This document shows, in pieces, positions 1 to 6,385 of a DNA stretch of 42,759 bases. The notes under the pieces are model-generated. The model saw nothing but the letters and a program-made list of their open reading frames with translations, was not told the DNA's origin and searched no databases. Within the stretch, counting starts at the first letter, position 1. The number at the start of each line of letters is the position of its first letter. The DNA is from an uncultured Deferribacteres bacterium. Its GTDB lineage: Bacteria > Zhuqueibacterota > JdFR-76 > DREG01. Both the position numbers and the translations under genes were made by a program. The stretch spans positions 1-42,759 of the forward strand of contig CAJVYQ010000042.1 of assembly GCA_913009825.1 (NCBI GenBank), in the 5' to 3' direction.

Positions 1-1
1 T

Positions 2-135
2 TAGTGTCTGAACGAAAAGTGGAAAACATGCATCTTGCTTGTTTTATAAACTGTTTAGTTTCCTTCTTTTCAATAAAATTATAATTCAAACAAGATGTTT
101 GATATACAATTTAGATACTTTTCGTTCAGGCACTA
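2..135. repeat. MITE-like inverted-repeat element
   Basis: A 19-bp arm at 2-20 (TAGTGTCTGAACGAAAAG...) is matched by its reverse complement at 117-135 with one mismatch. The AT-rich interior of about 95 bp has no open frame but carries a second nested pair (CATCTTG near 31, CAAGATG near 91). This is the layout of a miniature inverted-repeat transposable element. The right arm supplies the stop codon of the neighbouring HD gene. The first bases resemble the ends of elements at 18452 and 22831. Confidence 0.7.
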
Positions 136-666
136 TTTAACCAACTCAAAATCAATAAAATCCGCATGATGAAAAATAATTGCTTCCGGCGACCTTTTAA
201 ACCCTTCCCCTTCTTTGGAATGCACAGCGGCAATATGCATAACCTCTTCGGGAATATTGTGTTTGAAGCATAATCCCACGCTTGTGAAAGGATGCCGCAA
301 ATAGTTTCCATGCCGACTTTTTACAACGTGCCCGTCCTTTTTATTGTACTCAAACAGTTTTCCCACATCCGCCAACAATGCTCCGGCTATCAGATGATCC
401 CGGTTTACCGGCGTTTTTCGCTCACGATAAGCGGAAGATAACACATCGTCACAAGCGATGCAAATACGGCAAACCGTTCGCACATGCTCTAAAAAAGTAA
501 TCTTAACATGATCGGCCAATAGAGTAAAAGGAATCGACAGCAACTCTTCCGGCGTCCAGTTTCGGTAAGCCATCGCTTCCTGCCATACGGCTATGGCATT
601 CTTTCGCAACTCCTTGTTCTGAATTTCATTAAATTCCGGTATAATTTCAAGTATTTTTTCGATCAT
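133..666 (-). CDS. HD-domain protein, 177 aa
   Basis: Small soluble protein with an HD-superfamily metal phosphohydrolase signature. HLIAGALLADVGKLFEY carries the metal-binding H and D pair (as AD rather than HD), and RHPFTSVGLCFKHNIP and IAAVHSKEGEG supply the later histidines, ending in IIFHHADFIDFE. The start at 666 is preferred over a longer frame to 705 because AGAGGA lies five to six bases upstream of ATG 666, and the longer form would crowd the preceding gene. It is the last gene of the citryl-CoA operon, 50 bp after the lyase. The TAG stop lies inside the right arm of the MITE at 2-135, so the original C-terminus may have been longer. The substrate cannot be told. A nucleotide or metabolite phosphatase or a regulatory role is possible. 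Confidence 0.8.
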   Translation of the reverse strand: MIEKILEIIPEFNEIQNKELRKNAIAVWQEAMAYRNWTPEELLSIPFTLLADHVKITFLEHVRTVCRICIACDDVLSSAYRERKTPVNRDHLIAGALLADVGKLFEYNKKDGHVVKSRHGNYLRHPFTSVGLCFKHNIPEEVMHIAAVHSKEGEGFKRSPEAIIFHHADFIDFELVK

Positions 667-716
667 GATTTCCTCTTTTTTTACTTTTCTCACCGCTTTT
701 GGCAATGTTGTTAAAA

Positions 717-1496
717 CTACATCAGCTTTCTCTCCTCGGGACCATCGTATAAAGAATCCGTCGGGTGTATTTTTCGCATCGGTCTTTGCCGGGTCTGTTC
801 TTCTACAACATGCGCCACCAAACCGGGCACTCTTGCCATGATGAAGAATGCGTTGGCCAGCGCCGGCGGAAAATCCAATTCACATAGTATTGTGGCAATA
901 GCGCCATCCACATTGACAGGCAAAGATTTTCCCAAAACAGTTTGTAAGGATTCCTGGATAGAAAGGGAAATAGTCACAAAATCACGGGCAATACCGTATT
1001 CTTCCGCCAGAGAAAACAATTTTACACTGCGCGGGTCTTTTGTATGAAAGCGGTGACCGAACCCCGGCACTCTTTTCTTCTTTTCACGGTAATCGAGTAG
1101 TGCTTTCATAACCGCCTCACCGGTCGATAATCCGCCCTCATCCCGCACTTGTCTTATTTCCATCAGCACATTCATGCAGCCCTCAATGGCGCCGCCGTGA
1201 AATTTATTGATGGCCAGAATCCCGCTCGCCAAAGCGGCATTCAATGTGGAACCGGTGGAGGCAACCGTTATTGCAGCCAATGTGGACGGTGGTGTTGTAC
1301 CGTGATCGATAGAGGAAACCAACATGACATCCATCATTTTACCAATATTTTCCGAAGGTAATTCTCCCTTTAAAATGAGATAAATCGCCTGAGAAAAAGT
1401 AAGCTTGCCCATCATTTCATCAACCCGGTACCCTTTTACTATAATTTTATTGGGTTCAATTTTGGTTATCGCCGTTTTCCAGCTTAAATCACTCAT
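717..1496 (-). CDS. citryl-CoA lyase / citrate synthase-like protein
   Basis: 259-residue protein of the short citrate-synthase superfamily that includes citryl-CoA lyase. It should cleave citryl-CoA to acetyl-CoA and oxaloacetate. Citrate-synthase landmarks are in order: INKFHGGAIEG (substrate His), VPGFGHRFHTKDPR (second His and Arg), NVDGAIATIL (catalytic Asp) and MARVPGLVAHVVEEQ. It lacks the larger N-terminal domain of true citrate synthase, and its size fits stand-alone citryl-CoA lyases. It sits 16 bp after the CoA-ligase alpha gene, so the three proteins probably act as a split ATP-citrate lyase. A related C-C lyase acting on another acyl-CoA, such as a malyl- or methylcitryl-type substrate, cannot be excluded from sequence alone. 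Confidence 0.85.
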   Translation of the reverse strand: MSDLSWKTAITKIEPNKIIVKGYRVDEMMGKLTFSQAIYLILKGELPSENIGKMMDVMLVSSIDHGTTPPSTLAAITVASTGSTLNAALASGILAINKFHGGAIEGCMNVLMEIRQVRDEGGLSTGEAVMKALLDYREKKKRVPGFGHRFHTKDPRSVKLFSLAEEYGIARDFVTISLSIQESLQTVLGKSLPVNVDGAIATILCELDFPPALANAFFIMARVPGLVAHVVEEQTRQRPMRKIHPTDSLYDGPEERKLM

Positions 1497-1512
1497 TACT
1501 TCAATTCTTCCG

Positions 1513-2412
1513 TTAATCCATCCCTAAAACTTCTTTTGTTACAACAGATATATCGTTAAAGGCATCCACAACATGGGCGCCCACTTCTTTCAGTCGTTTC
1601 ACTTTTCCTTCATAAGTTCCCCTGCCTCCTTCGATGATGGCGCCGGCGTGGGAGAATCGCGTACCCTCTTTTGCCGCTTTGCCGCCGATGTAGGCAATCA
1701 GCGGTTTGGTAAATTCACCGTTTTCGATCAGGTCGGCAACCTGTTCCTCCTGGGATGTGCCGATTTCGCCGAACATGACCACTCCTTTAGTTTCCGGATC
1801 CGCTTCAAACATTTTCATCACATCCGGATGGGGCGTGCCGACGATTGCATCCCCACCGACATGCACAATAGAACTCAGGCCGACGCCGCTGCTGCTAAGA
1901 TAATAAGCGATAGATGAAGTAATTCCGCCGCTCCTTGAAGCTACGCCTACATTTCCCGGCTTGAACCATTCCCTTGCTGTTTCCGCACGTCCGCCAATCA
2001 TTCCCAACACAGCTTTTCCCGGACTGAGTAATCCCAACGTATTGGGACCGATAAAGCGGGCGTTGGTTTCCTTTGCTTTCCGGACAATTTCCATCACATC
2101 CCATATCGGCACCCGGTCCGGGATAATGACGACCAGATGAATGCCATGATCGAATGCTTCCAGCGCGGCATTTTTAACCAGCGGCGCCGGCACAAAAATA
2201 ACGCTCACATCAATATCACCAAAATTTTCCACGCATTCCGCAACTGTATCGTAAACCGGCACCTGCAAAACCTCTCCCCCGCCTTTCCCCGGAGTTACGC
2301 CGGCGATCACATTGGTTCCGTATCCCATCATCAATTTGGTGCGCGCCATTCCTTCACGACCGGTAATTCCCTGAATAATCACTTTTTTATTTTCATCTAT
2401 CAAAATGGCCAT
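1513..2412 (-). CDS. CoA ligase alpha subunit (SucD / citryl-CoA synthetase small subunit type)
   Basis: 299-residue CoA-binding subunit of an ADP- or ATP-forming acyl-CoA synthetase. The N-terminal Rossmann CoA domain begins VIIQGITGREG. GNVGVASRSGGIT and GGDAIVGTPHPDV mark the ligase domain. The phosphohistidine motif RFSHAGAIIEGG places the active His near residue 255. Start 2412 is chosen because GGAGGA sits three bases before the ATG; the upstream ATG at 2439 has no comparable site. The downstream lyase suggests the acyl acceptor is citrate rather than succinate, but the sequence would also fit a succinate- or malate-CoA ligase. It is translated with the beta subunit, whose stop is 57 bp upstream. 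Confidence 0.85.
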   Translation of the reverse strand: MAILIDENKKVIIQGITGREGMARTKLMMGYGTNVIAGVTPGKGGGEVLQVPVYDTVAECVENFGDIDVSVIFVPAPLVKNAALEAFDHGIHLVVIIPDRVPIWDVMEIVRKAKETNARFIGPNTLGLLSPGKAVLGMIGGRAETAREWFKPGNVGVASRSGGITSSIAYYLSSSGVGLSSIVHVGGDAIVGTPHPDVMKMFEADPETKGVVMFGEIGTSQEEQVADLIENGEFTKPLIAYIGGKAAKEGTRFSHAGAIIEGGRGTYEGKVKRLKEVGAHVVDAFNDISVVTKEVLGMD

Positions 2413-2469
2413 TTGTCCTCCGTGCATTGAAATAATCAATCTGAATCATCAAAGAGTAACAGTCCTCTC

Positions 2470-3996
2470 TCAATCAGTCAGTCCGGGAATGGGCAGGGAA
2501 ATAAACGTTGCTTTTTTTCCATGGAACTCACATTCCAGTTCGCAGGCAAGGCATTCCGTGCATTTCCCTTTGGCCGCTTCCTCCCGGGATATGGCCAGAA
2601 CCGGTTTTTCATCTTCCAAATTAAGTATTTGCGGCCCGCACGCGCTGATACACGCTTTTGTTTTGCAGCACAGGCAAGCAGCATGGTCAAAGGTAACTGT
2701 GCCGGTGAGTGTCGCAAATGTGTACGGTTCTTTGGGCAAGAATAGTTCTTGCTTTTTCTTCTGAACCGCGGCATTCTGATGTTTGTCTACCAGGATACGC
2801 AATCTCTCAGCGCAGAAATCGGCCGAATCATCTTTTTTGTAGCCTTCCACCGGCGCCGGTAAATCTTTGGTGTATTCCTGCAGAATATCAACCGCCAGGT
2901 CCTCCTGATTTCCACCCAGGCGGATCACAGCCGGGATGGAAAGATTTTGTTCCCGAAAAGCCTTCACCAATCCTCTTGCCGAATGGAACTGCTCCTGACT
3001 TGCCACACCGGAACCGGAGCCGAAATAGGCATCGATATTTTTCTGCGAAAGGATGATTTTTGCAGCACGATAAACTTTTGAAGCCGGGGGATTCCCGCTT
3101 GTGTCGGTAAAGTTAGCGATTTTGAATCCCTGTTTGATCACAGCATCCATGGACATCATAGAGCCGCCGCCGCCGGCGCCGTGAAAGCCCACGTAGCCTT
3201 CCCCCTTTTTAAATCCCTGCTCCATCTGAATGAAATAAAAAGTACCGCGATAGTCATTTTTTTCCACATTGTAGGCGATTTTGTCCAGTTCGGACGGCGG
3301 CCGGTCAAATTCCCGGGCAATCTCGATCCCTAATTCCGGGTGCCTGAAAACCGCATAATCCTCGATGGTTATTCGACAATCAGCCGCTATTATTTTCCCT
3401 TCCGATGTGAGAACCAATGGATTAATCTCCGCTGCACGCGTTTCATATTTCTTAGCGACGTCAAACAGTTTCACCAAAATATTACCCAATTGCAGTTGTA
3501 ATTTCCCGGAAATGCCGGTTTTGCGCACCATTTCACGCGCCTGGTAATCTTTTAAACCGGTTAACACATCGATATACCGTTTGGTAACTTTATCCGGACA
3601 TTCTTTGGCAATCTCCTCGATACCGCTGCCGCCCTTGCTGCTGAACAATAACACCGGTTGTTTCATGGAATCATCGATAATTAAACCGGTGTAGAATTCT
3701 GATTTAATTTCAATTTTTTCTTCCACCAAAACATTTTCAACCTTGAAATTGTGCACCATTTTACCGAACAGTGAGCTTGATTTTTCTCTGGCTTCTTCGG
3801 GCGTGTCGGCAAACTGAATACCGTCATATTGGGCACGTTTAGTACTCCAAACCTGTATTTTTAACACAACCGGTTTATTCAGCTCTGACGCGATCCGGTA
3901 AACATCTTCAGGCGTTGCAGCCAATTCCCCATTAGGAACCGGGATCTTAAATTTTTGCAACAATTCCTTGCCCTGATATTCATATAATCTTGCCAC
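2470..3996 (-). CDS. CoA ligase beta subunit with C-terminal ferredoxin-like Fe-S domain
   Basis: 508-residue protein, about 110 residues longer than ordinary SucC. The N-terminus (ARLYEYQGKELLQKF) and the AAEINPLVL motif are the ATP-grasp part. GGGGSMMSMDAV and FTDTSGNPPASKV are the CoA-ligase part. Residues about 428-508 are an extra domain with cysteines near 441, 443, 444, 449, 453 and a CxxCxxCxxxC run near 479-489, consistent with one or two [4Fe-4S] clusters. The start is GTG with GGGAGA upstream. It is the first gene of the operon and, with the alpha subunit and lyase, would activate and split citrate as in the reductive TCA cycle or its reverse. The Fe-S tail hints at coupling to, or sensing of, reduced ferredoxin. 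That is inference. Confidence 0.85.
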   Translation of the reverse strand: MARLYEYQGKELLQKFKIPVPNGELAATPEDVYRIASELNKPVVLKIQVWSTKRAQYDGIQFADTPEEAREKSSSLFGKMVHNFKVENVLVEEKIEIKSEFYTGLIIDDSMKQPVLLFSSKGGSGIEEIAKECPDKVTKRYIDVLTGLKDYQAREMVRKTGISGKLQLQLGNILVKLFDVAKKYETRAAEINPLVLTSEGKIIAADCRITIEDYAVFRHPELGIEIAREFDRPPSELDKIAYNVEKNDYRGTFYFIQMEQGFKKGEGYVGFHGAGGGGSMMSMDAVIKQGFKIANFTDTSGNPPASKVYRAAKIILSQKNIDAYFGSGSGVASQEQFHSARGLVKAFREQNLSIPAVIRLGGNQEDLAVDILQEYTKDLPAPVEGYKKDDSADFCAERLRILVDKHQNAAVQKKKQELFLPKEPYTFATLTGTVTFDHAACLCCKTKACISACGPQILNLEDEKPVLAISREEAAKGKCTECLACELECEFHGKKATFISLPIPGLTD

Positions 3997-4474: not shown

Positions 4475-6385
4475 CTACTGCCGTTCCGATGGACGGTTTT
4501 CTGCCCTCACAATGAGCACCGGAATTTTAACGGCGTGCCGGACGCTGTCGACGGTCTGACCAAAAATGACGTCCTCCACGCCGCGGTGTCCATGGTAGCC
4601 AAGCACCAGGAGATCGAAATTCATTTCCCCGACAGACTTGACAATCTCCGCAATGGGATTGCCGTAAAGAAGCAGGGTTTCCACCGGGAAATCCCGTTCT
4701 TCAATTTCACGCGCAAGTTTTTCCAGGCAGGCTTGATCTTCCCGGCTGTGCAAGCTTTGGGCGTCTTTTCCATAAACCATGGAGCCGGGCGTTTCGACCA
4801 CATGGATAAGCGTTAATCGTGCTTTTTGCGACCGGGCCATGGAAATAGCGGCTGAAATCGCTTTTGCATCGACATTCGAATGTTCCAAAGCCGCGCCAAT
4901 CTGCTTAATAGTGAGCGGTTTGATTCGTTGAGCAATGTTTCTCCCTGCCGTTATAATACCGCTTTCCCAAACTCGCCGCGCGCCCGATAGCGGTCCGAAC
5001 GTTATATAAATCAAGGTTCCCAGTAATATCACAATTCCGGTAATGACGAAAACCAATAATAAGATGGAACCGCCGGCCGGCCAATTCTTCATTTCTTGCA
5101 CAACCAGCATGAGATTCAAGGCGAAAATAATGGAGGCTACGATCCAGGCGAGCGCCTGAATCCAAACGGCGCTGGAAAAGGCGCCCATTTTTTTACGATA
5201 CGATGTAAAATGAATCAGCGGGATAACGGCAAATGGAAGCTGCAAGCTCAAAATGACCTGAGACAATATGAGCAGCTTATAAGTGCCTTTGCTGCCCATG
5301 AAGACGATAACGATGACGGCAGGGATTAGTGCGATGCTGCGCGTGAGCGCACTTCGCAGCCAGGGACGCATTTTAATATTAAGAAAGCCTTCCATGACAA
5401 TCTGACCCGGATATGGTGCCGGTGAGAGTGGAGCTCTGTCCGGCGGCCAAAAGCGCCAATGCAAAAGCGACGGGCGCGACCCGCGTTCCTAAAATGGGCT
5501 CCAATAAATGGTAGGCCTGCTCTATCTCGGTGACCACGATGCCGCGGCTGTGAAAGTTTGCTGCGCTCATTACCAGGATGGCGGCGTTGACAAAAAAGGC
5601 CGCATTCAGGGCCACCGCGGAGTCAATTAAATTGAATTTGCACGCTTCTCTTTTTCCTGTGAATGTGTTGGAAACGGCTCTCGACTGCACCAGCGAAGAA
5701 TGCAGATAGAGGTTGTGCGGCATAACCGTAGCACCGATGATGCCGATGGCAATAAAAAGAGCGCCCGGCGGCAAATCGGGTATAAAGCCGGCAGCGACCC
5801 CGCTCCAATCGGGGGTGGCCAGAAATATTTCGATCAAAAAACTGATGCCGATTGTGCTGACCAGCATGACGATAAAGGCTTCCATTTTGCGCACGCCCAG
5901 GCGCTGGATGGCCAGCAGCAAAAATCGACGCAGCCCCATAAAAGCGGCAGACCCAATAAAAGGTTCAGACCGATTACTGTGCCCAATACTTCGGCCAGAT
6001 CAGTGGCGGCAATGGCGATTTCCGCAAGAATTCACAGCAAATATTTAACGGCTTTCGGGTATTCGCGGCGACAGCCCTGCGCCAGATCGTATCCTGCGAC
6101 GATGCCCAGACGGGCGGAAAGCGTTTGTAAAAGCACACCCCTGAGGTTGGACATCAGCAGCACCCAAATCAACGTGTAGCCAAAGCGGGCGCCGCCTTCC
6201 ATGTCTGTTGCCCAGTTGCCGGGGTCCATATAGCCGACGCTCACCAGATAAGCGGGGCCGACAAAGACAAACAGCCGCCGCAGCCATCCTCCTTTTTTTA
6301 CTGCGACCCGGCCTTCCATATTATCGAGTGTAACTTTGTTCATTGCTTTTTGTTTTTCCATCCTCTTCTCTTTCAGACAGTCCAA
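4475..6385 (-). pseudogene. broken Nramp (MntH-type) metal transporter fused to a UspA domain
   Basis: Three collinear pieces rebuild one Nramp proton-coupled Mn/Fe transporter followed by a universal-stress domain. Piece 1 (to 6032) has the metal-site DPGN motif in [10 protein letters not shown]. Piece 2 (5939-5379) has MPHNLYLHSSLVQSR. Piece 3 (from about 5415) continues GQIVMEGFLNIKMRPWLR, more helices, then a UspA domain ending LVLGYHGHRGVEDVIFG and VLIVRA. Lesions: a TGA at 6032-6034 where a Trp codon is expected, after which the same frame still reads [15 protein letters not shown]; a frameshift with probable small deletion near 5930; and one extra G in the run at 5406-5408. The start may be ATG 6361, since the frame to 6385 opens with TTG. 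Several independent lesions argue against a single sequencing error. Confidence 0.85.

Follow-up and report, generated by a model that had tools for sequence, protein, structure and literature searches.

Citrate synthase is usually regarded as the point at which the tricarboxylic acid (TCA) cycle loses its reversibility. A ligase and a lyase acting in the synthetic direction would save one ATP relative to citrate synthase, as follows from the established chemistry of these families, and an ATP-forming use of ATP-citrate lyase (ACL) was reportedly treated by Moeller in 1987. The closest described systems are the citryl-CoA synthetase (CCS) CcsA/CcsB and the citryl-CoA lyase (CCL) Ccl of Hydrogenobacter thermophilus (PDB codes 6hxq and 6hxp), ACL of types I and II, and the succinyl-CoA synthetase (SCS) SucCD. 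Genomes with CCS/CCL are counted in PMC9802188, the available part of which makes no mention of an Fe-S-tailed ligase. The present analysis concerns a four-gene operon at positions 133–3996 of the window, that is, the whole stretch of 42,759 nucleotides analysed, which is the entire contig C42 (CAJVYQ010000042.1) of a 5.1-Mb assembly in 123 contigs from an uncultured Deferribacteres bacterium (GCA_913009825.1). The operon encodes the beta and alpha subunits of a CoA ligase, a lyase and an HD-domain protein, and is a genuine, conserved arrangement. With moderate confidence, the four genes are proposed to form a two-step, reversible, ATP-coupled system for the synthesis or cleavage of citrate or a very close homologue. 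The module belongs with the citrate-cleaving ligase/lyase systems as a genuine and conserved variant, and the literature searched, in which subscription journals were largely outside coverage, held no description of the module, of the Fe-S-tailed ligase or of its HD partner.

The four open reading frames (ORFs) lie on the minus strand where the sequence-only reading had placed them, and their Pfam matches agree with the proteins that it had named. The CoA-ligase beta (2470–3996, 508 residues), recognized from its ORF, Pfam matches and alignment, consists of an ATP-grasp domain, a citrate-type substrate domain and an Fe-S tail, and its AlphaFold model has a mean predicted local distance difference test score (pLDDT) of 90.6. 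It is followed by the CoA-ligase alpha (1513–2439; Pfam, NCBIfam and alignment), which probably starts at the ATG at 2412, the position where alpha begins in the relatives, then by the putative citryl-CoA lyase (717–1496, 259 residues) and by the HD-domain protein (133–705; Pfam HD, alignment and model), with a likely start at the ATG at 666. The gaps between the ORFs, taken as listed, are 30, 16 and 11 bp.

Relatives, which include Calditrichota and KSB1 records, were sought among genome contigs with two core peptides from outside the tail, and the best 80 of the 359 found were retained. In all 80 the match reaches residue 503 or beyond. Judged by title or lineage, they come from Chloroflexota (27), Aminicenantes (24), Fidelibacterota, KSB1 and Zixibacteria (4 each), Calditrichota (3), Gemmatimonadota, Acidobacteriota and Thermodesulfobacteriota (2 each) and single other taxa. 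Gene order was counted over 85 distinct loci, after exclusion of five repeats, with the testable loci as the denominator at each step. Alpha lies downstream of beta, on the same strand and no more than 1.5 kb away, in 73 of 80 loci; the lyase comes after alpha in 62 of 64 and the HD gene after the lyase in 52 of 60, which bears out the HD protein as a conserved partner. The complete order occurs in at least eight phyla (Calditrichota, KSB1, Fidelibacterota, Acidobacteriota, Zixibacteria, Aminicenantes, Chloroflexota and Gemmatimonadota). The recurring gene order, together with the invariant cysteines described below, indicates that the arrangement is not due to chance. Of 99 genomes, 11, the window's own among them, encode a tailed beta at 60% identity or more, while 92 have some SucC-like match. 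The cluster is widespread and apparently unstudied.

Pfam detects ATP-grasp_2 and Citrate_bind in beta, the latter at 28.1 bits against a cut-off of 26.8, and CoA_binding and Ligase_CoA in alpha. The window beta has no Pfam match to Ligase_CoA, a domain matched by the genome's own normal SucC. Among 43 aligned members of the beta family (E ≤ 0.01), Citrate_bind is matched by all 43 and Ligase_CoA by one. The betas of L041 and L117 score under the Citrate_bind cut-off. Both subunits miss the NCBIfam cut-offs for succinyl-CoA synthetase (beta, sucCoAbeta, 258 against 375.55; alpha, 301.3 against 353.2). In an alignment of 75 beta rows (74 loci and the window) and 50 alpha rows, the CCS/ACL-like motifs GGGGS and SGNP of beta are present in 75/75 and SRSGG of alpha in 50/50, where SucC and SucD have NGAGL, GG without NP, and SRSGT, correspondingly. 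The H. thermophilus stretch GGGGS...ANFTDIGGNPPAEK thus corresponds to GGGGS...ANFTDTSGNPPASK in the window beta. His264 of alpha, within an SHAGAI motif, aligns with the phospho-histidine and is present in all 50 rows.

Trees built without the tail compared these ligases with 14 SucC and 13 SucD rows, with two Aquificota-like CcsA/CcsB, which are 77–80% identical to the H. thermophilus stretch, and with ACL rows (L129–L132), the type names of which we take from architecture. The 26 beta rows form one clade with a Shimodaira–Hasegawa-like approximate likelihood ratio test (SH-aLRT) support of 100 and the 20 alpha rows one clade with a support of 99. Both clades fall outside the SucC/SucD rows, so that the ligase does not lie within ordinary succinyl-CoA synthetases, the placement that the sequence-only reading had named as its refutation. 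They also stand apart from the CcsA/CcsB and ACL rows, and no grouping with CcsA/CcsB was found in the tree. As some branches are long and support was computed as SH-aLRT only, the ligase is called separate and is not assigned a sister group.

The overall best PDB matches of beta and alpha are succinyl-CoA synthetases. A fold comparison of beta with VIA-align 2, covering mainly residues 1–406 and hence silent on the fold of the tail, gave a Z-score of 33.1 with SCS 3ufx_I (root-mean-square deviation (rmsd) 2.7, 370 residues aligned) and of 28.0 with CCS 6hxq_B (rmsd 4.2, 386 aligned). The best reading of the motifs, family scores and trees is that the ligase forms a new subfamily alongside SCS, CCS and ACL, the substrate of which is probably citrate or a very close homologue.

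Other ligases were met in the survey. An SCS-like ligase of another type is encoded at L180:4305–5573 and L181:3767–4945 (both minus strand), the latter adjoining an SdhA-like gene, as read by eye. In the phylum of the window, L126 carries a different beta, and in L125 the alpha is fused to a lyase domain; the ligase genes of both loci adjoin a LeuC-like gene and those of L126 also a LeuD-like gene, which makes them possible candidates for a citrate or citrate-like ligase/lyase.

The third gene carries the Pfam domain Citrate_synt and scores above the NCBIfam citryl-CoA lyase cut-offs (NF004866, 258 against 245; NF004869, 255.8 against 212), and its best PDB match is the citryl-CoA lyase 6hxp (1.5e-57). 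The N-terminal half of citrate synthase is absent. When aligned with two Aquificota-like lyases and with the citrate synthase of the same genome, the protein retains the residues corresponding to the His/His/Asp and Arg of citrate synthase, which we take to be the catalytic residues and the oxaloacetate-binding residue, as well as the YDG..ER with which the Aquificota-like lyases end. It thus fits the family model of a citryl-CoA lyase, with predicted cleavage of citryl-CoA. In a tree of the lyase, citrate synthase and type I ACL sat on end branches of 10 and 5.6, too long for a placement, and no conclusion is drawn from that tree. Together with the gene order, these features agree with the proposal of the sequence-only reading that the ligase subunits and the lyase make up a split ACL-like set.

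The C-terminal domain of beta (residues 431–495; 2512–2706, minus strand) was expected to hold two sets of four cysteines, which it does, although the motif CxxCxxCxxxC assigned to the first belongs to the second (Cys479, 482, 485 and 489), and the first reads CxxCx4CxxxC (Cys441, 444, 449 and 453). All eight are cysteine in 75/75 aligned rows, confirming the tail as a conserved extra domain. Pfam Fer4 gave no match in the window tail, while Fer4_9 is matched by 21 of the 43 aligned members (E ≤ 0.01). The tail is modelled with block means of 92–96 pLDDT over residues 421–500 and most likely carries two [4Fe-4S] clusters. Through these clusters the enzyme would respond to oxygen or to redox state, or a ferredoxin partner would find a docking site, which are the likeliest roles of the tail; the suggested tie of the ligase to the redox state of ferredoxin is plausible.

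A tail that is structural only, or that stabilises a larger complex with no redox role, is a less probable but real possibility. The ligase chemistry needs no redox reaction, and the deepest member, L177:5366–6931 (minus strand, 50% identity, outside the 75-row set), has the ASQEQ core and the tail but has lost the first cysteine set, which also counts against the main proposal. The retention of eight cysteines in every aligned row from many phyla argues for more than a structural part.

The HD protein scores 24.1 bits with Pfam HD against a gathering score of 22 and is modelled as a helical protein with a pLDDT of 93.6. The His-Asp dyad is not intact in the window protein, where the His is replaced by Ala112, next to Asp113. 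Over 46 rows this position is His in 22, Ala in 19, Arg in 3 and Cys in 2, and the replacement in 24 of the 46 makes catalysis by the protein uncertain. His74, Asp113, His138, His157, His162 and Asp182 are retained in 46/46. The fold search with the model returned a single match under 0.001, YhaM (9h3f_A, 8.3e-5, TMq 0.67), which is too general to indicate a function. The protein probably acts as a dedicated regulatory or assembly partner.

The stop codon of the HD gene is overlapped by an element (2–135) of 135 bp, resembling a miniature inverted-repeat transposable element, with 19-bp inverted ends (2–20 and 117–135). The element separates this gene from what is probably the remainder of the module, and the contig breaks at it. 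Window positions 1–127 are identical to the final 127 bases of contig C57 (L143:1888–2014). Such a shared end is the usual outcome of an assembly graph at a repeat, which makes the adjacency of C57 likely, short of proven, and the operon probably continues there. Inward on C57, the strand in line with the operon encodes a large subunit of the aconitase family, an isocitrate/isopropylmalate-type dehydrogenase, a SnoaL-like protein, MmgE/PrpD and a second HD protein. In relatives such as L036 and L043 the order beta-alpha-lyase-HD-dehydrogenase-MmgE/PrpD is uninterrupted. In Aminicenantes and many of the sufficiently long Chloroflexota loci a LeuC/LeuD-type hydratase comes next, often with the dehydrogenase after it. 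Many relatives thus have an aconitase-family hydratase and/or MmgE/PrpD downstream, plus the isocitrate-type dehydrogenase, and two hydratases are common in the modules. Beyond MmgE/PrpD, a further HD-domain protein of a different kind is encoded at L140:9435–10037 (minus strand) and L044:12882–13433 (plus strand). Upstream of the operon, window positions 4475–6385 (minus strand) encode an Nramp transporter with a terminal universal stress protein domain; this fusion is split over the ORFs 4475–5464, 5379–5939 and 6032–6385 and is therefore either frameshifted or a pseudogene.

The genome was inspected for the enzymes that would surround a citrate-cleaving system. It has a normal sucCD beside KorABC-like 2-oxoacid:ferredoxin oxidoreductase genes (named by eye) and a single-chain protein similar to pyruvate:ferredoxin oxidoreductase (PFOR). 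A normal citrate synthase, of the Si type, is present as well, with a 909-residue frame of AcnA-size aconitase and a monomeric isocitrate dehydrogenase (IDH), so in this genome the module would be a second route. Among 50 other genomes with an Fe-S-tailed beta, of unstated completeness, a full-length citrate synthase was found in 32, broken or partial matches in 2 and neither in 16, Re-citrate synthase not having been searched for. Incomplete metagenome-assembled genomes and Re-citrate synthase could explain part of the missing enzymes. The 16 include 11 of the 15 Chloroflexota and G430, a Coatesbacteria chromosome in a single record. No monomeric IDH was found in three of these Chloroflexota (G405, G413 and G429), in two of which there is a LeuB-like match; otherwise Iso_dh is matched only on the contig of the module or next to a HacA-like gene.

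The gene order, the families, the conserved catalytic residues, the cysteines and the separate clade are established at the level of sequence; we infer the substrate, the direction, the content and role of the clusters and the role of the HD protein. The ligase would spend ATP to couple the acid to CoA via the phospho-histidine on alpha, and the lyase would cleave citryl-CoA to acetyl-CoA and oxaloacetate. Run the other way, the pair would make citrate and ATP from these two products, thus keeping the thioester energy that citrate synthase wastes. With the hydratase and/or MmgE/PrpD and the dehydrogenase, the module would extend from oxaloacetate and acetyl-CoA to 2-oxoglutarate. The proposal is favoured by the family match and residues of the lyase, by the Citrate_bind matches, motifs and separate clades of the ligase, by the hydratase and dehydrogenase genes that follow in many loci, by the isocitrate dehydrogenase-like gene of an Aquificota-like ccsA-ccsB-ccl operon, and by the genomes in which no full-length citrate synthase was found. 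The chemistry proposed in the sequence-only reading is probably right.

Several observations weigh against the citrate proposal. The substrate loop reads ASQEQ in 75/75 rows, where the CcsA rows have A(N/S)NT and the ACL rows AN(F/N)T, and in 74/75 Arg359 is followed by Leu in place of the second Arg that completes the CCS/ACL pair (RR or GR). The corresponding citrate-site residues of ACLY are presumably Asn346, Thr348 and Arg379. Phe347 lies in the citrate loop of ACLY according to the available part of PMC10115795. GGGGAS/GGNPS/SRSGG and a match to Citrate_bind are found also in the ligases of L180 and L181, so such marks are no proof of citrate. The best NCBIfam match of the dehydrogenase is the homoisocitrate dehydrogenase AksF2, although all its scores are under the cut-off, and it has SPIV where two IDHs (L174 and L130) have SLNV. 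The genome of a Cloacimonetes locus with the Fe-S beta (L049) has a citrate synthase, no lyase match and no alpha adjoining beta. To these are added the oxidative set in the window's own genome and the 32 genomes with a full-length citrate synthase.

Part of these points would be accommodated if the ligase and lyase made or split homocitryl-CoA from acetyl-CoA and 2-oxoglutarate, with the HacA-like hydratase and AksF-like dehydrogenase carrying on to 2-oxoadipate. The AksF2 match and SPIV keep this alternative alive, and it is helped by the hydratase, which scores above the NCBIfam hacA_fam cut-off, by the two hydratases of many modules, by the altered citrate site, and by the full canonical set from citrate to 2-oxoglutarate already in the window genome. 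However, the lyase retains the citryl-CoA lyase pattern, the dehydrogenase stays below every cut-off, and several Chloroflexota have no other citrate synthase, AcnA-size aconitase or other IDH. Homocitrate is considered fairly unlikely.

The sequence-only reading had favoured a dedicated citrate cleavage for an autotrophic reductive TCA cycle, tied to the redox state of ferredoxin. The 2-oxoacid:ferredoxin oxidoreductase genes and the PFOR-like protein fit such a cycle, and since citrate synthase already covers the other direction, cleavage would be the natural job of a second system. The citrate synthase, aconitase and monomeric IDH in the genome leave the cycle itself unestablished, and no CO2-fixation set has been demonstrated there. 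The ligase is widespread in Aminicenantes and Chloroflexota, which are mostly described as heterotrophs or fermenters, and the frequent co-occurrence with full-length citrate synthase also argues against it, so this use is judged unlikely. One Aminicenantes bin is described as a heterotroph or fermenter in the part of PMC5459899 that was available.

That the ligase is a paralogous SCS with a chance neighbour lyase is very improbable: although its best PDB matches are SCSs, it lies outside the SucC/SucD rows in both trees, beta misses the sucCoAbeta cut-off and lacks Ligase_CoA, the lyase is linked to it across the loci, and a normal sucCD is encoded elsewhere in the genome. Ordinary SucCD was rejected on the trees and family cut-offs. 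Two further uses were set aside. Leucine-type use is disfavoured by LeuB-like and LeuC-like matches that lie together on contig C27 and by the residues of the lyase aligned with what we take to be the oxaloacetate Arg. With 2-methylcitrate, the dehydrogenase would presumably have no role on 2-methylisocitrate.

A bolder form of the citrate proposal, tentative and somewhat doubtful, is that this fourth kind of ligase in the SCS/ACL superfamily, gated by its two [4Fe-4S] clusters and a dedicated HD partner, reversibly takes the place of citrate synthase in the living cell, with a yield of ATP, in Chloroflexota and other anaerobes without that enzyme, the direction of carbon being set by redox state. 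A widespread operon in which citrate synthase is replaced or doubled by a reversible, ATP-conserving pair, with an Fe-S domain on the ligase, would alter how metabolism is reconstructed for many uncultured phyla, since homology alone may label these genes as succinyl-CoA synthetase, and would offer a testable case of redox control over the direction of central carbon flow.

In comparison with SucCD, the window ligase shares the fold of residues 1–406 and the HAGAI context of the active His, but its beta has no Ligase_CoA match, it forms a separate clade and it has other substrate motifs. With ACL of types I and II it has in common the Citrate_bind domain and the GGG.S-like and GNP motifs, while it differs in the citrate loop and the second arginine and in having the Fe-S tail, and its lyase is a separate ORF, not fused to alpha. 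For Planctomycetes OTU-14, likewise outside Aquificota, ccsA, ccsB and ccl-like genes are described as separate, as they are here (PMC5459899), although the available part of that account mentions neither an Fe-S tail nor an HD protein. An Aquificota-like ccsA-ccsB-ccl operon (L174) also has an isocitrate dehydrogenase-like gene, in front. The module can further be compared with CcsA/CcsB and Ccl of H. thermophilus, with which it shares separate beta, alpha and lyase genes, the motifs GGGGS, ANFTD.(G/S)GNPP and SGG, and the catalytic residues of the lyase. Unlike CcsA/CcsB, the window ligase stands in its own clade, lacks the A(N/S)NT loop and the RR pair, and has an alpha of about 300 residues as opposed to 337 in CCS, and to the described set the module adds the Fe-S tail and the HD gene.

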